From IMG/VR virus record IMGVR_UViG_3300021405_000030, positions 1 to 39,407 of that record: 39,407 bases of DNA; one strand, 5' to 3'. Source of the stretch: a virus. A program made the position numbers and the translations under genes. A model generated the notes under the pieces. That model was not told the origin of the DNA. It ran no database searches and worked only from the letters and a program-made list of their open reading frames with translations. Positions 22,105-38,658 of this stretch are shown piece after piece; the first letter of the stretch is position 1, and each line of letters opens with the position of its first letter.

Positions 22105-23121
22105 ATGCAAAAAGTTCCGGGAGTGTTCGAGCGTCCGCCGAATTCTGGCGTCCACTGGATTTCCTACACCGACTCCGACGGCAACCGCCGGCGCGAGAAG
22201 GCGGGGAAGCTCACGGCGGCGCTCGACCTCATCCGGCAGCGAAAGGCGCAGGTTGCAAAGAACGAATACATCGCGCCGCGCCAGAAGCGCGTCTGGACGT
22301 TCCGAAAACTCGCCGAGGAAAACATCCGGGCGAAAGGCTCCCGCCTGAAGCCGCTCTCGCTCTACACCGACAGATCCCGCCTCGCGATCCTGCTACCGAT
22401 CATGGGTCACATCCGCATGGACAGGCTCACCGGCGCGCGCATCGAGGAACTGCTCGGCGGAATGGCCGAGGGGCGGTCCGGCTCGACCATCAACCGCTAC
22501 CGCTCGTTCATCAGCTCCTGCTTTGCCTACGCGGTGAAAACCAACAAGGCCACGGCGAATCCGTGCCAGCGCGTCGCGCGCTGGAAAGAGAACGAGGCTC
22601 GGGTCCGATGGCTCAGGCCCGAGGAAGAGACGCGACTGCGGAAAGAGTTCGTTTGTGATCAGCACGAGTGGGAGTTCGAACTCGCCGTCTCGACCGGCAT
22701 GCGCCGCGGCGAGCAGTACGGCGCGAAGTGGGCGGAAGTCGACGTCGAGCACGACGTCATGACGGTGCGTGGCAAAACCGGCCGCCGGCACGTGCAACTC
22801 AACGAAGAAGCGAAGGCCGCGCTCGAAAAGCTCCGCGCGATGTCCGGCGAGAAGGAGTTCGTCTGCCCGGATGCGAACTCGGGCGCTGTGCGCGATCTCC
22901 GCCAGTGGTTTCGAACGGCGTGCGATGCGGCCAAGGTCACGAACTTCCGCTGGCACGATCTCCGCCACACGTTCGCGTCGCGCCTGGTGATGGCCGGCGC
23001 CGACATTCGCGTGGTGCAGGAACTGCTCGGTCACGCGAGCATCGTGCAAACCATGAAGTATTCCCACCTGTCCGCCGAGCACCGACGGCGCGCCGTCTCG
23101 AAAAAAGAGGGGAAGGTTTGA
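22105..23121 (+). CDS. int: Tyrosine recombinase (phage integrase)
   Basis: A 338-residue integrase with GGGGAGAAGG before the ATG. An N-terminal arm-type segment (about 1-60) is followed by a core-binding helical domain (about 65-160) and a catalytic domain. Catalytic residues are all present: Arg200 (TGMRRGE), Lys224 (VRGKTG), His284 and Arg287 (HDLRHTF), His310 (LLGHAS), and the nucleophile Tyr319 (TMKYSH). It should integrate the phage at a bacterial attachment site. The gene overlaps the next TTG start. No excisionase was identified by sequence. Confidence 0.94.
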   Translation: MQKVPGVFERPPNSGVHWISYTDSDGNRRREKAGKLTAALDLIRQRKAQVAKNEYIAPRQKRVWTFRKLAEENIRAKGSRLKPLSLYTDRSRLAILLPIMGHIRMDRLTGARIEELLGGMAEGRSGSTINRYRSFISSCFAYAVKTNKATANPCQRVARWKENEARVRWLRPEEETRLRKEFVCDQHEWEFELAVSTGMRRGEQYGAKWAEVDVEHDVMTVRGKTGRRHVQLNEEAKAALEKLRAMSGEKEFVCPDANSGAVRDLRQWFRTACDAAKVTNFRWHDLRHTFASRLVMAGADIRVVQELLGHASIVQTMKYSHLSAEHRRRAVSKKEGKV

Positions 23122-24162: not shown

Positions 24163-24726
24163 ATGGCCCTAAAACACGAAGCACAGAGCGGGGAAAGCGC
24201 CGTCGAATCAGCGAATCCGCGAGCCTCCGAGGTCCATTCCCGCGCGCCGCTCAGGGCGGCTCCGGCAGGCGAGAACGTGGCACCTGGTGAGTCGCGATGG
24301 GATGCGCGGGAAGCGTGCAATGGCCCGAACGTTGAGCCGGGAAGGGAAGGCGAGCCGCCGGCAATCGAGCCGCCGGCAATCGAGCCGCCGATCCGTACTC
24401 ACCAGAGTCCGCTGTCCGAACTTCCGCGCTGCATCGTGTGCCGCGAGTTCGTGGGTCCGGTGTTCCGCGTCGTGGACTTCCACGTGGGAATCGTGAACCC
24501 GGACGGTGTGCGCCACGTCGCCGGCCTCGCGATGGCGCACCGGCTCCCGCTCGGTCTCGCGGAAATTTTCGCGACCGAGCCGCCGCCGATCAACATCAGC
24601 GACGATCCCCGCGTCGACGACCGCGCGATCTACTGCCAGGAATGTTTCGCGTACTCCGACATGCCGCAGGTGATGGAGCTCATCCGCAAACGCAAGGCCG
24701 AGGCGAAGAAGGCGGAGCGGTCGTGA
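24163..24726 (+). CDS. Cys-pair protein with disordered N-terminus, unknown
   Basis: A 187-residue protein. Residues 1-85 are polar and Pro/Glu/Ala-rich, ending in a tandem EPPAI repeat. From about residue 85 there is a compact domain with CIVCREF and CQECFAY pairs that could hold one zinc, and a basic helical C-terminus (ELIRKRKAEAKKAERS). The segment between the Cys pairs (GIVNPDGVRHVAGLAMAHRL) looks structured. It overlaps the next gene by four bases. Function unknown. Confidence 0.7.
   Translation: MALKHEAQSGESAVESANPRASEVHSRAPLRAAPAGENVAPGESRWDAREACNGPNVEPGREGEPPAIEPPAIEPPIRTHQSPLSELPRCIVCREFVGPVFRVVDFHVGIVNPDGVRHVAGLAMAHRLPLGLAEIFATEPPPINISDDPRVDDRAIYCQECFAYSDMPQVMELIRKRKAEAKKAERS
24352..24391 (+). 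repeat. Tandem 15-base repeat inside an early gene
   Basis: The unit GAGCCGCCGGCAATC occurs at 24352-24366 and 24367-24381, with a partial third copy from 24382. It encodes EPPAI EPPAI EPP, a flexible proline linker. Exact identity at the DNA level suggests recent slippage. Confidence 0.9.
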
Positions 24727-24908
24727 CGCCCGCGAAGCTCTGGAAGGCCGGCGATCGAGTCCTGTTCGCGCACCAGAAAAAAGGCGAGACCGCGTTCACC
24801 ATCACGAGCTACAAGGCCACGTTTCAGGGTCCGATGGTCGAACTCCGCGAACTCCCGGGCGAATTCGCCGCGCACCTGTTCATCGCGGCCGAGGAGGTCG
24901 AATCGTGA
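24723..24908 (+). CDS. Small SH3-like protein, unknown
   Basis: A 61-residue protein starting at GTG 24723 (GTGA overlap). LWKAGDRVLFAHQKKGETAF, then ITSYKATFQGPMVELRELPG and a final AAHLFIAAEEVE strand give a five-strand pattern like a small SH3-like barrel. It is coupled to both neighbours. Function unknown. Confidence 0.68.
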   Translation: MTPAKLWKAGDRVLFAHQKKGETAFTITSYKATFQGPMVELRELPGEFAAHLFIAAEEVES

Positions 24909-25348
24909 AGCGCGCACAGCGGGCGGAAACAAAACTCGGAGCGGATTTGCGGAAATCCTCATATCCCGCGCTCAATTGGGCCGCTAGAAAAGCCGCTGAG
25001 AACGCCGAGGCGATGCTGGAAGAACGCCTTAAAGCCGAAGAACGATCTCATCAGGAGGTCTGTCATCTCGCGCTCGAAGGTCAGGGATACCTTTTGGCCG
25101 CGACGGTGTGGAAAATCCGGCAGCGAATTGCGAAGCAACACGGCGAGGTTGTAGCCGTCGATGTCGACGAGCTGCTGATGGAGATGTGCTACGACGACCC
25201 CAAGGACATCTCGTTCCTGCATGCATTCGTCGATGCGCTCGATGCGAGGCACGACGTCGCGATGTCCATCGGATGGCTGGCCCACCTCGCAGAGACCGAG
25301 AAGTTCTTTGACGTTGCAAAAGTAAAAGTGCAGGTAAGGCGACCGTGA
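24905..25348 (+). CDS. Helical early protein, unknown
   Basis: A 147-residue protein starting at GTG 24905 (GTGA overlap). It has a charged N-terminal helix (NAEAMLEERLKAEERSHQEV), then HLALEGQGYLLAATVWKIRQ and the acidic VDVDELLMEMCYDDP. No recognised domain. It ends in a GTGA overlap with the next gene. Confidence 0.68.
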   Translation: MKRAQRAETKLGADLRKSSYPALNWAARKAAENAEAMLEERLKAEERSHQEVCHLALEGQGYLLAATVWKIRQRIAKQHGEVVAVDVDELLMEMCYDDPKDISFLHAFVDALDARHDVAMSIGWLAHLAETEKFFDVAKVKVQVRRP

Positions 25349-25563
25349 GGCGGCTTTGGGAGTGGCTCGCGTTCCGGTGGGACGTCCGGCAGACGCGCAG
25401 GTTCGCGCGGCGCCTGGTCGCGCTGAAAAAATCCGCCGACATCGATCCGCCGCCACCGGCTCCCGAACCCACGCGCTCGCAGGTCGACGAGTTCTCGCGC
25501 CGGATCACCGGCAAAAATTCACCGAAGTCAGACGAGGAGGAACCATGCCAGCACCGATCATGA
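25345..25563 (+). CDS. Small basic protein, unknown
   Basis: A 72-residue protein from GTG 25345. The N-terminal half is Arg/Trp-rich and helical (RRLWEWLAFRWDVRQTRRFA); the second half is Pro/Glu/Ser-rich and probably disordered. The last 19 bases overlap the next gene. It may be membrane-peripheral. No family recognised. Confidence 0.6.
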   Translation: MRRLWEWLAFRWDVRQTRRFARRLVALKKSADIDPPPPAPEPTRSQVDEFSRRITGKNSPKSDEEEPCQHRS

Positions 25564-25733
25564 AGTACTTCGAGTTTTCGCATCTGCCGGCGGCTCTGCA
25601 GGAAGTATCGAAGCCGATCTGCGAACTCGCGCAGCAGTTCGACGCGTCGCTCCCCGACGGCGCGGAAAAATCAGCCGGTCTGCGAAAACTGCTCGAGGCG
25701 AAGGATTGCTTCGTTCGCGCGCGGCTCGGCTGA
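25545..25733 (+). CDS. Acb2/Tad1 hairpin-like small protein, candidate anti-defence sponge
   Basis: A 62-residue protein with GAGGAGGAACC before the ATG. The sequence reads KYFEFSHLPAALQEVSKPI, then ELAQQFDASLPDGAEKSAGL, then RKLLEAKDCFVRA. This two-helix hairpin, with 'ELA......PD..EKS..L.KL.EA' at the turn, closely parallels the pattern I associate with the Acb2/Tad1 hairpin family. Known members sequester cyclic nucleotides made by host CBASS or Thoeris systems. The HLP..LQ.vS variant is frequent in phage early operons. Family membership is from memory of motif and topology, and ligand binding is inference. It is tightly coupled to the next gene (TGATG). Confidence 0.6.
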   Translation: MPAPIMKYFEFSHLPAALQEVSKPICELAQQFDASLPDGAEKSAGLRKLLEAKDCFVRARLG

Positions 25734-25993
25734 TGCCGTGCTCGCGAATCAATCTGCCCGGAGGCGGCGTCGCCATCGTGAAGCACGCCGCCGCTCGGCA
25801 TTCGAAGTGCCGTTTTTGCCCGACGCTCCACGACGGCTCCGGCGCTCTGCCGGCGACGCTGCTCTGCGACGCGGTAATCGCGAAAACTCTCGGCGGCGGC
25901 GAGATCACCTGCGACGCGAAAGTCTGCACCGCGTGCGCGCAGCGCATCGGCGACAAGGACTACTGCCCGAAACATCGGAAGGCGACGCCGTGA
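25733..25993 (+). CDS. Small zinc-ribbon-like protein, unknown
   Basis: An 86-residue protein whose ATG overlaps the previous stop by one base. Cys/His pairs are regular: HSKCRFCPTLH, a later LLCDAV, then CDAKVCTACAQR and YCPKHRK. It likely binds one or two zinc ions. Similar small phage proteins are common in early operons; the role is unknown. It is coupled to the next gene by GTGA. Confidence 0.7.
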   Translation: MPCSRINLPGGGVAIVKHAAARHSKCRFCPTLHDGSGALPATLLCDAVIAKTLGGGEITCDAKVCTACAQRIGDKDYCPKHRKATP

Positions 25994-29035: not shown

Positions 29036-29238
29036 CGATCACTGTGAAAACGCGATTCAAGATCACTCACGAGGAGAAGTGGCGTAACGAAGTCGCAGAA
29101 CAGCTAAACGTGCTCCTGGCGCGCGCCGATTATTTTCAGGAGACCTCGAACGACGACTCAGACAAGGAAGCTGAAGCCGCCACGCTCGCGATTGTTGAAC
29201 GTGTCGCGGACTTCGAAGAGATCGAGGCGGAAGAATGA
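29032..29238 (+). CDS. Small acidic protein, unknown
   Basis: A 68-residue protein from GTG 29032 (GTGA overlap). It is helical and acidic (KWRNEVAEQLNVLLARADYF, ending FEEIEAEE). It overlaps the next ATG by four bases. Function unknown. Confidence 0.62.
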   Translation: MTITVKTRFKITHEEKWRNEVAEQLNVLLARADYFQETSNDDSDKEAEAATLAIVERVADFEEIEAEE

Positions 29239-30363: not shown

Positions 30364-31665
30364 ATGAAGATTCAGATGTGGAGCGTCGACAAGGTGCTCC
30401 CGTACAAGCGGAACCCACGGAAAAACGAGGACGCCGTGGAGAAAGTCGCCGCGTCCATCAGGGAGTTCGGATTTAAGCAGCCCATCGTGGTGGACAAAGA
30501 CTCCGTGATCATCGTAGGGCACACCAGATTGCTCGCGGCGCTCCGGCTCGGAATGAAGGAGGTGCCCGTGCTGGTCGCGACCGATCTTTCGCCGGCACAG
30601 GTGAAGGCATACCGACTGGCCGACAACAGGGTCCACGAAGAAGCAGTGTGGGACGAGGAACTTCTCGCGCTCGAACTCGGCGATTTATCGAAGCTCGGTT
30701 TCAATCTGGAAGCCACCGGCTTCGACGTCGACGAAATTAACGCGCTGCTCAACCTCGAGCAGGGCGGACTGCTCCCGGGCACCGAGGAGGACGTCGTGCC
30801 GGCGACGCCGGAGAAGCCGACCACGCGCAACGGCGACCTGATTTCGCTCGGCAAGCACCGGCTCATCTGCGGCGATTCGACAGATCCGTTCACCATCGAG
30901 AAATTGTTCAGCGGGTCGAAGGCCGACGCGGTGTTCACCGATCCGCCCTACAACGTGAACTACGAAGGCTCCGCCGGAAAAATCAAAAACGACAACATGG
31001 AGGACCTGAAGTTCCGGCAGTTCCTGCTCCGCGCGTACGCGGTGATGTTCCGCGTGCTGCGCGACGGCGCCGCGGTCTACGTTTGCCACGCTGACACCGA
31101 GGGCGAGAATTTTCGCGGCGCGTTTCGCGAGGCCGGCTTCAAGCTCTCCGGCTGCCTGGTGTGGGTCAAAGACGCGCTCGTGCTCGGGCGCTCCGACTAC
31201 CAGTGGCAGCACGAGCCGATTCTCTACGGGTGGAAACCCACGGGCGCGCACCGCTGGTACGGCGATCGGAAGTCCACGACGGTCTCCGAGTTCATGCTCG
31301 AGGCTCCGCTCACCGAGGTCGAGCCCGGCACCTACCGGCTGCGTCTCGGCGAGCAGTGGTTTGTGATCTGCGGCGAGAAGCTCACGATCAAGGAACTGGC
31401 GACGACGATCACGCGCATCCCGCGGCCGAAAAAAAACGAGGACCATCCCACGATGAAGCCCGTCGCGCTCATCGACAAGATGCTCCGCAATTCAACCAAG
31501 CGCGGCGACCTGGTGTTCGATCCCTTCGGCGGCTCAGGGTCCACGATGATCTCCTGCGAGAAGCTCAACCGCGCAGCCTTCCTCTGCGAACTCGAGCCGA
31601 AGTTTTGCGACGTAATAGTCCTCCGGTGGGAACAGGCGACCGGCAAAAAAGCGAGGCGACCATGA
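30364..31665 (+). CDS. ParB-like domain fused to adenine/cytosine-N DNA methyltransferase
   Basis: A 433-residue fusion with AAGGGAGC upstream. Residues 1-90 are a ParB/Srx-like domain (VLPYKRNPRKNEDAVEKVA, FGFKQPIVVDKD, IIVGHTRLLAALRLG). Residues about 160-430 are a beta-class N4/N6 methyltransferase with catalytic TDPPYNVNY (DPPY 193-196) and the later AdoMet-binding DPFGGSGST (386-394). Between YGDRKSTTV and HPTMKP lies an extra segment of about 40 residues (TYRLRLGEQWFVI...). Such fusions are common in phages and may methylate the genome against restriction or control packaging. The ATG of the next gene overlaps its end. Confidence 0.9.
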   Translation: MKIQMWSVDKVLPYKRNPRKNEDAVEKVAASIREFGFKQPIVVDKDSVIIVGHTRLLAALRLGMKEVPVLVATDLSPAQVKAYRLADNRVHEEAVWDEELLALELGDLSKLGFNLEATGFDVDEINALLNLEQGGLLPGTEEDVVPATPEKPTTRNGDLISLGKHRLICGDSTDPFTIEKLFSGSKADAVFTDPPYNVNYEGSAGKIKNDNMEDLKFRQFLLRAYAVMFRVLRDGAAVYVCHADTEGENFRGAFREAGFKLSGCLVWVKDALVLGRSDYQWQHEPILYGWKPTGAHRWYGDRKSTTVSEFMLEAPLTEVEPGTYRLRLGEQWFVICGEKLTIKELATTITRIPRPKKNEDHPTMKPVALIDKMLRNSTKRGDLVFDPFGGSGSTMISCEKLNRAAFLCELEPKFCDVIVLRWEQATGKKARRP

Positions 31666-32255: not shown

Positions 32256-32765
32256 ATGGCAACCGTCGGACCGGAAAAAGTCGCGCAGGCGCTGAACCTC
32301 ACCGAGTCGCGCGTCCACCAGCTCGTGAAGGAGGGACTTCCGAAGGAAGGCCGCGGCCAGTTCGATCCCGTCAAATGCATGCTCTGGTACATCCGGTACC
32401 TGCAGGCGGCGATTGAAAAGAAATCGGTCCCGACGCTCGACGGCGGTTTCGTGGGCGAACGCGAGGAACGCGTGCGGCTGCTCCGCGCCGACGCCGACCT
32501 CCGCGAGATGGAGCTCGCGCGCGAGCGGTCGCTCGTGATCTCCATCGCAGATTACGAACGCACGCTGGCCGATCTGATTCTCACCACCAAGGCCCGGGTG
32601 ATGGCGATCCCGTCGCGCGTCGCTCCTGAAGTCGTGGGCCAGACGTCGCGCGTGATGGCGCAGGCGCTCATCGAGAAGGCGTGCAAGGAAGCGCTCGCGT
32701 ACCTCGCGAAGGCGGAAAATTACAAACATGCAGGTCCCGCAGAGTCATCCAAGCGCGCTGGCTAA
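32256..32765 (+). CDS. Terminase small subunit, Nu1-like
   Basis: A 169-residue protein. The N-terminal winged-helix domain (EKVAQALNLTESRVHQLVKE, GRGQFDPVKCMLWYIRYL) matches lambda Nu1 family small terminases that bind the packaging site. The C-terminal half is helical (RLLRADADLREMELARERSL) and should contact the large subunit. It overlaps the large terminase by 38 bases. The Nu1/gpA pairing points to cohesive-end type packaging. Confidence 0.85.
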   Translation: MATVGPEKVAQALNLTESRVHQLVKEGLPKEGRGQFDPVKCMLWYIRYLQAAIEKKSVPTLDGGFVGEREERVRLLRADADLREMELARERSLVISIADYERTLADLILTTKARVMAIPSRVAPEVVGQTSRVMAQALIEKACKEALAYLAKAENYKHAGPAESSKRAG

Positions 32766-34671
32766 CCTCATCGCGATGCTCGGGCGCTCCGTCGCGCTCT
32801 ACGATCCGCCGCCGGACATCACCGTCTCGCAGTGGGCGATCAACAACCGCGTGCTCCCGAAGGGAACGACCTCGCGGCCTGGTCCGTTCAAGCCCGAACT
32901 TTTCCAGATCGAGATGATGGACGTGGTGCTCGACCCGCTCGTTCACGAAGTGGTGATCATGAAGTCGACGCAGGTGGGCTACTCCGACGCGGTGATCAAC
33001 AACATCTGCGGGTACTTCATCGATGCAGATCCGCAGCCGATCATGCTCGTGCAGCCCACCATCGATAACGCGAAGGACTACGGCAAAAAAAGAATCACGC
33101 CGATGATTGAGTCCTGTCCCGCGCTGCGCGAGAAAATCAAACCGCCGACGACCCGGCGCGCCGGCAACACGCTATCCCTGAAGGAATTTCCCGGCGGGTT
33201 CCTGAAGCTCACCGGCGCGAACTCCGGCGCCGGCCTCCGCAGCGATCCCGTGCCCGTGGTGCTGTTTGACGAGGTGGACGGATATCCGCTGGACACCGAT
33301 GGCGAGGGTTCGCCGATCTCCATCGGCACCAGGCGCACCGACGGATTCGCGAACTACAAAATCGTGAAGGGTTCCACGCCGGCGAAGCCCAAAGGTCTCA
33401 GCCCGATCGAGAACGACTTCGAGCGCAGCGACAAGCGGCGCTTCCACGTCCCGTGTCCGTTCTGCCAGACGATGCAGCCGCTGCGCTGGCGTGATCCGGC
33501 GCCGCCGAACGGCACCGGCATCTACCGCCTGCAGTACGCCACGAACGCCGACGGGCAGGTCGACCCGGCCTCGGTCGCCTACCTCTGCAGCTCGAGCGCG
33601 TGCGGAAAAAAAATCCCGGAGCGCTACAAACAGCAAATGCTCAACGCTGGCAAATGGATTGCCGAGTTTCCCGAGCGGCCGGTCGTGGGGTTCCACATCA
33701 ACGCGCTCTACTCGCCGTGGCGCGAAAACTGGCACGCGCTCGCGCAGGAGTGGAGCGAAGCGAACAAGGAAGGGAACCCGGAAAAACTGAAGGCGTTCAT
33801 CAACCTCCGGCTCGGCGAGACGTGGGAAGAGCAGGGCGACGCGATCGAGGCGCTCGCGCTGAAGGCGCGGCTCGAGGAATACCAGGCCGAGGTCCCGGAC
33901 GGCGTCGGCCTGCTCACCGCCGCGGTCGACGTGCAGGCGGACCGCCTCGAGTGCGTCGTGAAGGGTTGGGGCGACAAGGAGGAATCGTGGCTCATCGCCT
34001 ACCAGCAATGCTTCGGCGATCCCGGGCAGGAGGCGGTGTGGAACGAGGTCGATTCGTTCCTGCTCTCGACGTGGGAGACGGCGACCGGCCACAAAGTGAA
34101 AATCGCCTGCACCATGATTGACTCCGGCGGTTTGCACACCGACTCGGTCTACCGTTTCGTGCGCGCGCGCCAGCATCGAAAAATTTTCGCGCTGAAAGGC
34201 TCGAGCGAGTCGGGGAAGGAAATCCTCGGCAAGTTCAGCGTGAACAACCAGTACCGCGTGAAGCTCTGGATCATCGGGACCGACACCGCGAAGGACCGCA
34301 TCTTCGCCCGGATGAAAATTCCAGCGCCTGGTCCGGGCTACATGCACCTGCCCGACTTTGCCGAGGACGAGTACCTCGCGCAGCTGACGTCCGAGAAGGC
34401 GGTCCGGCGTTACCGCCGTGGCAAGGGCACGGTCCGCGAATATCTCAAGACGCGCGCGCGCAACGAGGCGCTCGACCTCGAGGTCTACGCGCTCTCGGCG
34501 CTGTACGTCCTCGGGCAGGCGGCGATCCGCAAGCTCGGCGAACTCGCCGCCGCGCTCCGGCTCCCGCCGGACGAGCCGCCGAAGGGGTCAGGAGGCGGTC
34601 AGCAGGGCGGTGGAGGCGATGGTCCGGGGCGGCCAAGCGGCGGGTCATCGTGGGTTCAGGGGTGGCGATAG
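32728..34671 (+). CDS. Terminase large subunit, gpA family
   Basis: A 647-residue packaging motor. The ATPase domain has a Walker A variant KSTQVGYS (residues 79-86), matching lambda gpA's KSARVGYS, and Walker B VVLFDEVD (177-184). A zinc-like CPFC (243-246) with later cysteines follows. The nuclease domain has AAVDVQADRLE with Asp401, the position of the lambda catalytic aspartate. The C-terminus ends in a Gly-rich tail. It should cut the genome at cos and drive DNA into the prohead through the portal. Start inside the small subunit gene is supported by the family length. Confidence 0.95.
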   Translation: MQVPQSHPSALANLIAMLGRSVALYDPPPDITVSQWAINNRVLPKGTTSRPGPFKPELFQIEMMDVVLDPLVHEVVIMKSTQVGYSDAVINNICGYFIDADPQPIMLVQPTIDNAKDYGKKRITPMIESCPALREKIKPPTTRRAGNTLSLKEFPGGFLKLTGANSGAGLRSDPVPVVLFDEVDGYPLDTDGEGSPISIGTRRTDGFANYKIVKGSTPAKPKGLSPIENDFERSDKRRFHVPCPFCQTMQPLRWRDPAPPNGTGIYRLQYATNADGQVDPASVAYLCSSSACGKKIPERYKQQMLNAGKWIAEFPERPVVGFHINALYSPWRENWHALAQEWSEANKEGNPEKLKAFINLRLGETWEEQGDAIEALALKARLEEYQAEVPDGVGLLTAAVDVQADRLECVVKGWGDKEESWLIAYQQCFGDPGQEAVWNEVDSFLLSTWETATGHKVKIACTMIDSGGLHTDSVYRFVRARQHRKIFALKGSSESGKEILGKFSVNNQYRVKLWIIGTDTAKDRIFARMKIPAPGPGYMHLPDFAEDEYLAQLTSEKAVRRYRRGKGTVREYLKTRARNEALDLEVYALSALYVLGQAAIRKLGELAAALRLPPDEPPKGSGGGQQGGGGDGPGRPSGGSSWVQGWR

Positions 34672-36232: not shown

Positions 36233-37087
36233 GTGCCAGCCATCGTCCAGGACCGCGTGCCCGACCACTTCCCGGCCGGCACGACGGTGAAATTCACCCG
36301 AACCTTGGACGACTATCTTCCCTCGGATGGCTGGACGTACACGATCTACCTGAATGGTCTCACGCAAAAATTCAGCAAGGTCGCCAGCGTTTTTTCGAAC
36401 GACTACCTCATCGAGTTCGTCCCCTCCGACACCGCGTCGCTCAACCCAGGCCCGTATCGCTACGCCGAGCGTCTCTCGAATCCCGGCACCGACTTTGTGA
36501 TCACCGGCGTCGAGCCCGACGGTTTTGGAAATGCGATCTACTCGTTTTCTTCGTTCACGAATCTGCCGCCCTTCCTCGGCATGGGAGTCGTGATCAGCGG
36601 CTTCGCGAACGGAGGCAACAACGCGAGCGGCGCGATCTCCGCGATGTCGCTCGACGGACGCTTCGCCGGCTCATTCACGATTCCCAACGGCGCAGCGGTC
36701 GCTGAAACCCACGCGGCCTCGGGCGCCGGCGCCGCGGAGATTCACGACATCCACGGCGACGAACTGGTGATCAATATCGAGCCGAACGTAGCGACCTCCG
36801 CCGCCGGCGCGTTCGCCACGTTCGAAGAGAATCAGCTCGCGGTTGTCGAAGCCGTGCTCGCTGGACGGATCACCACCGGCATCGAGACCTACCAAATCGC
36901 CGGTCGCAGCGTGACGAAAATTCCGATCAAGGAACTGATGCAGCTGCGCGGTCTGCTGCGCGCGGCCGTCTGGCGTCAGGACAATCCGGGCAAGCTCGGC
37001 GTCCCCTACCACGTGGTGTTCCATGCCGAGAACGAGGACATGGATTATCCGCCGACGTGGGTTGACGTCACAGGACTCGAGCGATGA
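36233..37087 (+). CDS. Head completion protein, gpW-like with Ig-like insert
   Basis: A 284-residue protein from GTG 36233; no strong ribosome site is visible. The N-terminal domain (about 1-80) has TVKFTRTLDDYLPSDGWTYT. Residues about 88-170 are an Ig-like beta module (GMGVVISGFANGGNN ... VAETHAASG). The C-terminal part (about 200-260), QLAVVEAVLAGRITTGIETY then GRSVTKIPIKELMQLRGLL, resembles lambda gpW, which closes the portal after packaging. Its place between terminase and portal equals that of W in lambda. The product is about four times longer than gpW. It overlaps the portal ATG by four bases. Confidence 0.65.
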   Translation: MPAIVQDRVPDHFPAGTTVKFTRTLDDYLPSDGWTYTIYLNGLTQKFSKVASVFSNDYLIEFVPSDTASLNPGPYRYAERLSNPGTDFVITGVEPDGFGNAIYSFSSFTNLPPFLGMGVVISGFANGGNNASGAISAMSLDGRFAGSFTIPNGAAVAETHAASGAGAAEIHDIHGDELVINIEPNVATSAAGAFATFEENQLAVVEAVLAGRITTGIETYQIAGRSVTKIPIKELMQLRGLLRAAVWRQDNPGKLGVPYHVVFHAENEDMDYPPTWVDVTGLER

Positions 37088-38658
37088 GAGCGCCGTCCTG
37101 GTCACGCAAAGTTCTCGATCGGATCACTTCGGAGTTCGGTTTTTCCTCGAAACGCTCACTCACCGTGTTCGCCGGCGCGCAGGGCGGACGTCTCACCATG
37201 GACTGGATTGCCGCGATCCTGTCCGCCGATCAGGAAATCAAAGGGAACATGCGGCTCCTCCGCGCGCGCGCGCGCGAGCTCTCCCGCAACAACCCCGTGG
37301 CGAAGTCCTACCTGAAACTGCTCACCGCGAATGTCCTCGGCGAAAACGGCATCGGTTACCAGGCGCAGGTCCGCAACAACGACCAGACGCTGAACGATGC
37401 CTTCAACACCAAAATCGAAACGGCGTGGACCGAGTGGTGCAAAAAAGGGAATTGCACCGTCGACGGGAAGCTTTCCTTCCGCGCGATCCAGAATCTGGTG
37501 CTGAAGAACATCGCGACCGACGGCGAGGTGTTCATCCGCATGGTGCAAGGCTTCGCGAATAAGCACCGCTTCGCGATCCAGCTGTTCGACGCGGACCAGG
37601 TAGACCACCTGTTTTCTCGTTTCGCTTCGAAGGATTCGAACGAGATCAGGATGGGAGTCGAAATCGATGCGTGGGGAAAGCCCGTCGCCTACCACGTGAA
37701 TCTGCAGCACCCGTCCGATCTCGGCGGCTCGCTAATGCGCGTCCGCATCCCTGCCGAGCAGATGCTCCACCTGTACGATCCCGAGCGGATCAACCAGACG
37801 CGCGGGATCACCTGGTACCACCCGTGCATGGTCGAACTCCGCATGCTCGGCGGGTACGTCGAAGCGGAACTCGTCGCCGCGCGCACCGGCGCCGCGAAGA
37901 TGGGTTTCCTGAAGCACACCGACCCGTCCTCCTACGAAACGCCGAACTCCGACGCGAAGTACAAAATCGAAGCGCAGCCCGGTGTGATCGAATCGCTCCC
38001 GCCCGGCATGGACTTCCAGGCGTGGTCTCCCGACCATCCCGCCGGCGCGTTCCCCGCGTTCGTGAAGGCCATGCTCCGTTTCGTCGCAAGCTCACTCGGA
38101 GTTTCCTACAACGGCCTCGCGTCCGATCTCGAAGGCGTCAACTACTCGTCGATGCGCTCCGGCCTGCTTATCGAGCGCGACCAGTGGAAGATGCTGCAGT
38201 CGCTCGTGAAGGAGCAGATGCTCCAGCCGATTTTCGAGGGTTGGATGCCGATGGCGCTGCTCGCCGGCGTGCTGGTCCTCGACTCGAGGGACCCGGCGCG
38301 ATTCATGGCGGGGAAGTGGATGCCGCGCGGCTGGCTGTGGGTTGACCCGCTCAAGGACGTGCAGGCCGCGATCCTCGGCATCGGCGCCGGCCTCACCACG
38401 CGCGACGCGCAGATCTCGCAGCAGGGAGGCGACTACGAGGAAGTGTTCGAGCAGCTCGAGCAGGAAAACACTCTCGCGAAGAAGCTGAACCTCGACCTGC
38501 AAATTCAGGCGAAGGCTCCCGTCGTGGACAAAGGCCCGAAGGACCAGGTGGTCGAAGAGGACGATTCGGACGGCAGCGATCCGAACGTCGATGACGAGGA
38601 AGCGAAGGGCAAGAAATCCGCGGCCGCGAGCCGAATCGTTTCGATTGGAGGCAGGTGA
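37084..38658 (+). CDS. Portal protein, lambda gpB family
   Basis: A 524-residue portal. It has ARELSRNNPVAKSYLKLLTA near residue 60, then NIATDGEVFIRMVQG, a core with LFDADQVDHLF and the conserved PAEQMLHLYDPERINQTRGI loop, then LGVSYNGLASDLEGVNYSS and a Gln-rich helical crown region (DYEEVFEQLEQEN). The C-terminus is acidic and disordered. Portals form the ring through which DNA is packaged and to which connectors attach. The TGATG overlap couples it to the protease-capsid gene. A CG-alternating run lies at 37260-37274. Confidence 0.94.
   Translation: MRAPSWSRKVLDRITSEFGFSSKRSLTVFAGAQGGRLTMDWIAAILSADQEIKGNMRLLRARARELSRNNPVAKSYLKLLTANVLGENGIGYQAQVRNNDQTLNDAFNTKIETAWTEWCKKGNCTVDGKLSFRAIQNLVLKNIATDGEVFIRMVQGFANKHRFAIQLFDADQVDHLFSRFASKDSNEIRMGVEIDAWGKPVAYHVNLQHPSDLGGSLMRVRIPAEQMLHLYDPERINQTRGITWYHPCMVELRMLGGYVEAELVAARTGAAKMGFLKHTDPSSYETPNSDAKYKIEAQPGVIESLPPGMDFQAWSPDHPAGAFPAFVKAMLRFVASSLGVSYNGLASDLEGVNYSSMRSGLLIERDQWKMLQSLVKEQMLQPIFEGWMPMALLAGVLVLDSRDPARFMAGKWMPRGWLWVDPLKDVQAAILGIGAGLTTRDAQISQQGGDYEEVFEQLEQENTLAKKLNLDLQIQAKAPVVDKGPKDQVVEEDDSDGSDPNVDDEEAKGKKSAAASRIVSIGGR

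Follow-up and report, generated by a model that had tools for sequence, protein, structure and literature searches.

A widespread 62-residue phage protein as a probable distant branch of the Acb2/Tad1 hairpin superfamily and a candidate sponge of host immune signals

Acb2/Tad1 hairpin proteins soak up bacterial alarm molecules. Profile links place a 62-residue protein (P0001), encoded by a temperate tailed phage, very probably within the superfamily of these hairpins, in which its family would form a distant branch that is not Acb2. With function, ligand and oligomeric state read from the superfamily, the protein is best explained as a putative sponge of a nucleotide-type host immune signal, a reading to which we assign a probability of roughly 0.6. 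The original prediction had called it Acb2/Tad1-like, and this call stands at the level of the superfamily, by way of intermediate sequences, and not as a direct match to Pfam or to canonical Acb2.

The window, that is, the whole stretch of DNA analysed, is a 39.4-kb record with the major head protein at its left end, followed by the tail genes, the integrase (22105-23121), the terminase (32728-34671) and the portal (37084-38658). A single ORF at 30364-31665 (PHROG 498, 1.9e-163) encodes a ParB/methyltransferase fusion, its N-terminal half being ParB-like and its C-terminal half a DNA methyltransferase. The hairpin gene belongs to a run of small genes between the integrase and this fusion. It occupies 25545..25733 on the plus strand, as do all parts of it described below, and is supported by the ORF list, PHROG matches, relatives, the structure model and dN/dS. 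An AGGAGG ribosome binding site (25535..25540) lies four nucleotides upstream of the ATG, in agreement with the "excellent ribosome site" claimed for it. Since hundreds of records contain relatives that share its start region (MPSPIMKYF...) and dN is low against dS in the comparison with the closest relative (0.064 and 0.73, with 7, 2 and 20 differences at the three codon positions), the ORF is a real coding gene under strong purifying selection.

Most of the small genes around it are coupled by GTGA, ATGA or TGATG overlaps. The upstream plus-strand ORF (25345..25563, 72 amino acids, without a family match) overlaps the hairpin gene by 19 nucleotides, and the stop codon of the latter shares one base with the ATG of the downstream ORF (TGATG, 25731-25735); both ORFs are given as context only. 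The coupled cluster of very small genes is thus as the original prediction described it; the label "early" derives solely from the location 2.4 kb past the integrase gene. The downstream ORF (25733..25993, plus strand) encodes a Cys-rich, zinc-ribbon-like product (C..C ... C..C) with a weak match to PHROG 26165 (5.7e-4, scored on the ORF from 25706), and three sister intervals without the hairpin gene contain homologues 60-65% identical to it. That the small neighbours might also be anti-defence genes is unsupported, because none has an informative Pfam or PHROG match and none is conserved alongside the hairpin gene.

Direct searches gave the following picture. The Pfam model Acb2_Tad1_hairpin (PF24729) scores the protein at 12.6 bits (E 0.17), against a gathering cut-off of 27 bits, and matches 11 of 53 family members weakly (best E 0.011). 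The protein is an ordinary member of PHROG 1761 (3e-31) and PHROG 5120 (2.4e-23), two catalogue families without a function, whose entries state no Acb2/Tad1 link. Comparison of the family with canonical Acb2 of T4 and of the Pseudomonas phage by hhalign was not significant (0.2-0.4% probability), no direct match of the protein to Tad1 was found, and NCBIfam returned no match. In the PDB, phmmer and profile searches started from the protein or its family found nothing beyond chance matches (Gp22, SiaP, designed coils). A Pfam match to Occludin_ELL (E 0.036) was judged spurious; it is probably the source of the label "occludin homology domain protein" on one family member (MZ675741.1), and another (OR565852.1) is misannotated as "endopeptidase Rz". 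The original prediction had looked to a profile search for a high-confidence match with conserved ligand-contact residues; the Pfam score falls below the cut-off, and other residues stand at the anchor positions of the known branches. Because the Pfam score is sub-threshold, we examined the family link through intermediates, and the resulting placement rests on profile links and does not imply Pfam membership.

The intermediates are eight phage proteins of the form FxFH...LPxGREKaLAxTkLEEAMmWANAAIAR, which were retrieved with a probe motif; the conclusions rest on the real sequences retrieved. All are undoubted members of PF24729 (E 4e-14 to 2e-27) and of PHROG 1454 (1e-22 to 5e-36), and the latter is also matched by our protein (5e-5), by a family member from a Brevibacterium phage (3.9e-6) and by T4 Acb2 (1e-3). 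Comparison of the family with progressively deeper sets of intermediates by hhalign gave probabilities of 85.9%, 84.8%, 94.1% (E 1.3e-7, residues 2-52) and 95.7% (E 9e-9), the last with a score of 43.5, whereas none of 200 column shuffles scored above 26.3. Reciprocal HMM scores between the two groups have a median of about 15 bits and reach 24.5, compared with at most 10.9-12.5 in 32,300 shuffles. The same intermediates also match canonical Acb2 (81.7%, profile-profile), all six chains of PDB 9ptq, "Acb2 homolog 43" (6e-10), and solved Tad1 (2e-3). It is because these proteins bridge the family to Acb2/Tad1, while its direct comparison with canonical Acb2 is not significant, that we regard it as a distant branch. 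PHROG 1454 proteins themselves (GREKaLAxTkLEEAMFWANAAIAR; L293-L300 and L301-L380) are extremely conserved, very widespread and mostly labelled "hypothetical", with apparently one relative solved (PDB 9ptq), an entry which indicates that Acb2 homologues are being screened by others.

The predicted structure supports this placement. An AlphaFold2 monomer model built from 91 family sequences (pLDDT 96.8) is all helical, with helices at residues 4-9, 16-35 and 40-60, and the model of a PF24729-positive intermediate has the same layout (3-9, 18-41, 46-68). The Acb2 protomer likewise consists of a short N-terminal helix and a two-helix hairpin (PMC12043709). In the hairpin gene, the modelled short helix (PIMKYF, with F9 96% conserved) is encoded at 25554..25571; it is followed by an F/Y-x-H-L-P cap motif identified by conservation and by its alignment to the FxFH motif of PF24729-positive proteins (residues 10-15, 25572..25589; H13 95%, L14 97%, P15 89%), the first long helix of the model (25590..25649), an LPDG turn (residues 36-39, 25650..25661) that is common to PF24729-positive proteins in the form LPxGREK, and the second long helix (25662..25724). 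The predicted two-helix pattern therefore holds as a hairpin and not in its positions, as the first of the two stretches originally quoted straddles the turn. Its HLP..LQ.vS form with a preceding Phe or Tyr is indeed distinct; it represents a coherent and huge separate clade (PHROG 1761/5120) and not a single odd variant.

A Foldseek search of BFVD with the model returned close relatives (42-50% identity) in the first rows, and among the best 50 matches listed, 13 are named "Acb2/Tad1 hairpin domain-containing protein", the first with E 0.026 and probability 1.00; from rank 7 among the matches listed, the named proteins are mostly Acb2/Tad1 hairpins. The search of PDB folds (Foldseek/VIA) produced generic helical hairpins only, a negative that means little because a sure PF24729 member finds T4 Vs.4 only at E 3.9. 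The combination of no profile match and a non-hairpin fold, which the original prediction had named as contrary evidence, did not occur: profile links were found and a hairpin was modelled.

The conservation pattern, surveyed in 145 family sequences (effective number 75), suggests that the oligomer core has been kept and the ligand-facing residues rebuilt. The second helix hardly varies (G45 L46 R47 K48 L49 L50 E51 A52 K53 D54 C55 x V57 R58, most at 93-100%), and its near-invariant block GLRKLLEAKDCFVR (residues 45-58, 25677..25718), defined by conservation and alignment, carries R47, K48, E51, K53, D54, C55 and R58 in place of the anchors of the known branches. A gapless alignment with the intermediates places Ala or Pro at position 40 (A40 in our protein) opposite the invariant Arg of GREK, R47 opposite the near-invariant Thr and C55 opposite the invariant Trp; the Arg and Thr of GREK...T, which are consensus in Acb2 too, are replaced in more than 90% of the family. 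The substitution T68M lowers the binding affinity of T4 Acb2 (PMC12657230), and its F82 stacks on the nucleotide base (PMC12657218); neither residue appears to have an equivalent in our protein, which has R47 and L61 there, and the position of the C-terminal stacking aromatic is Leu, Val or Ile. Possible counterparts of T4 Y8 (in KGY) are F9 or F/Y11, in a region where the N-terminal alignment is uncertain. Residues 47, 51, 54 and 58 share a face of the helix, and a heptad stripe of small residues (45, 52 and 59) would favour close packing of helices. Given the replaced anchors, the protein probably differs from Acb2 and Tad1 in its ligand or its binding mode.

Relatives of the protein are broadly distributed. 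By tblastn they occur in 369 of 50,697 phage records and in 25 plasmid records, and the plasmids carrying family genes are prophage-like; a further 85 are found in bacterial contigs (one genome per species) and at least 591 stretches of IMG/VR encode one. The bacterial contigs span Pseudomonadota, Actinomycetota, Chloroflexota, Bacillota, Planctomycetota, Verrucomicrobiota, Myxococcota and others. A survey of gene context reduced 174 loci to 76 independent contexts, 74 of which contain a family protein, and no conserved neighbour emerged, as any other true gene is found in 6 of the 76 at most; what scored higher proved to be antisense shadow ORFs of the family gene itself. Copies adjoin lysis genes in Gordonia phage Jumbo and Brevibacterium phage AGM16 and DNA metabolism genes in N4-like Ruegeria phages, lie in T4-like early DNA in Acinetobacter phage 133, and are located elsewhere at genome ends or, in some cases, next to terminase/portal or endolysin genes. 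All 27 records that share the portal gene of the window lack the hairpin gene, and six of these sisters have the complete homologous interval (from the integrase to the gene at 29235), with several flanking genes in common and the hairpin gene missing; the sole sister that carries it (L001/L421, 89% identical) has it in the same place. Such behaviour is what one expects of an accessory gene that is self-sufficient. Canonical PF24729 genes above the cut-off were found in none of 33 records, a count for which a background rate is lacking and from which no mutual exclusion is claimed.

Several individual copies have unusual structures. Early stops or frameshifts mark some chromosomal copies as decaying prophage genes (L230:6001-6021, L254:6001-6030, L270:5968-6015). 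In Brevibacterium phages AGM9, AGM10, 4C and 1C (24518-24754) an in-frame repeat insertion of about 51 nt splits the family gene; the insertion bears the annotation "repeated sequence in phage genome" and is missing in AGM16. In Rhodococcoides fascians (L285:5974-7848) the hairpin protein is the N-terminus of a long open frame running into prohead-protease-like sequence, possibly a natural fusion, and PF24729 relatives adjoin capsid maturation protease genes in mycobacteriophage DrDrey and Microbacterium phage NoodlelyBoi.

Under the sponge reading, the protein would self-assemble, probably into a hexamer like Acb2 and Tad1, and during infection the oligomer would bind and sequester a negatively charged signalling nucleotide made by the host, thereby keeping an abortive-infection effector (CBASS-, Thoeris- or type III CRISPR-like) switched off; the new invariant charged set, in place of the known anchors, would re-specify ligand recognition. 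A sub-case, whose estimate overlaps with that of the sponge reading as a whole, is that the ligands are the same cyclic di- or trinucleotides as those of Acb2, or gcADPR as in Tad1, held through compensating residues. This is possible but doubtful: the superfamily placement and the retained N-terminal aromatics (F9, F/Y11) are consistent with it, whereas the Arg and Thr anchors common to Acb2 and the intermediates are gone from the great majority of members and an aliphatic residue stands where T4 F82 stacks. The compensation itself, which we consider equally doubtful, would consist of an Arg shifted by two helical turns, from position 40 to 47, and of R58 as the counterpart of R85, which is invariant in Pseudomonas-phage Acb2; the alignment of these two residues speaks for the sub-case. 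Somewhat more tentatively still, the clade (PHROG 1761/5120) could be a large unrecognised sponge family capturing a signal that no known sponge targets, or an undiscovered host signal, which, if true, would have to be widespread, given the reach of the family across phages of many bacterial phyla.

Homology and fold are no proof of ligand binding, as a charged helical hairpin may instead have nucleic acid or a protein as its partner. The alternative to a sponge is a superfamily member recruited elsewhere, as a small regulator or inhibitor whose invariant basic/acidic helix would contact DNA, RNA or a host protein. The replaced anchors, the presence of R47, K48, K53 and R58 in the invariant block and the missing direct match to canonical Acb2 would all fit such a role, which we nevertheless regard as unlikely, since near-identical conservation across phages of many phyla is more readily explained by a conserved small ligand than by a host protein target, no known DNA-binding fold is present in the protein and ligand binding is the precedent in the superfamily. 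Very improbable is a small structural, packaging or lysis-associated protein. A Roseovarius phage relative (L089:2423-2686, FR682616.1) is annotated as "structural protein", and its product may be packaged if that label rests on virion proteomics; the copies beside terminase/portal or endolysin genes point the same way. Against this, the location of the gene varies freely among head, tail, lysis and early regions and far genome ends, it keeps no steady neighbour, and it is absent from sister phages with the same portal. The sponge reading remains the best explanation of the combined data.

The family is catalogued yet unnamed, and its apparent relation to the sponge hairpins lies below the Pfam threshold. 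No mention of it by PF24729 or PHROG number was found in the literature searched, which did not cover subscription papers, including ones on Acb2/Tad1 homologues, so that a prior mention is possible. Hundreds of phages, prophages of many phyla and prophage-like plasmids carry this 62-residue family without an assigned function, for which the sponge-hairpin link offers a concrete and cheap test. As the replaced anchors predict a different ligand or binding mode, the family could be used as bait for the host signal.

Comparison with known systems delimits the branch further. Acb4 (PF13876, SPO1) is likewise a widespread small phage sponge family and a yardstick of breadth and assays, but its fold differs, being a tetramer with dsRBM-like architecture (PMC11722364), and our protein has no Pfam match to PF13876. 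Tad1 (PDB 7uav, 8kbb-8kbh) has in its C-terminal hairpin an "RE..A.T..EEA.MW" helix in common with the intermediates, whereas its N-terminal beta domain is absent from our all-helical, 62-residue protein. With Acb2 (T4 Vs.4, PDB 7uq2; Pseudomonas phage p26, PDB 8h2j/8ixz) the alignment of R58 to the invariant R85 of p26 is shared, and the IKGY motif with its ligand-binding Tyr and the C-terminal Phe/Pro are apparently not, in a protein of 62 as opposed to about 90 residues. The GREK...T..EEAmmW branch of PF24729 (PHROG 1454, with PDB 9ptq among its members) differs in its motif Arg, Thr and Trp, all absent here, and in a loop before the first long helix that is about five residues shorter in our protein; the two have in common the helix-plus-hairpin layout, the F-x-F/Y-(x)-H cap, the LPxG turn and, in the aligned second helix, E41-K42, L49, E51-A52 and the small residues at 45, 52 and 59.
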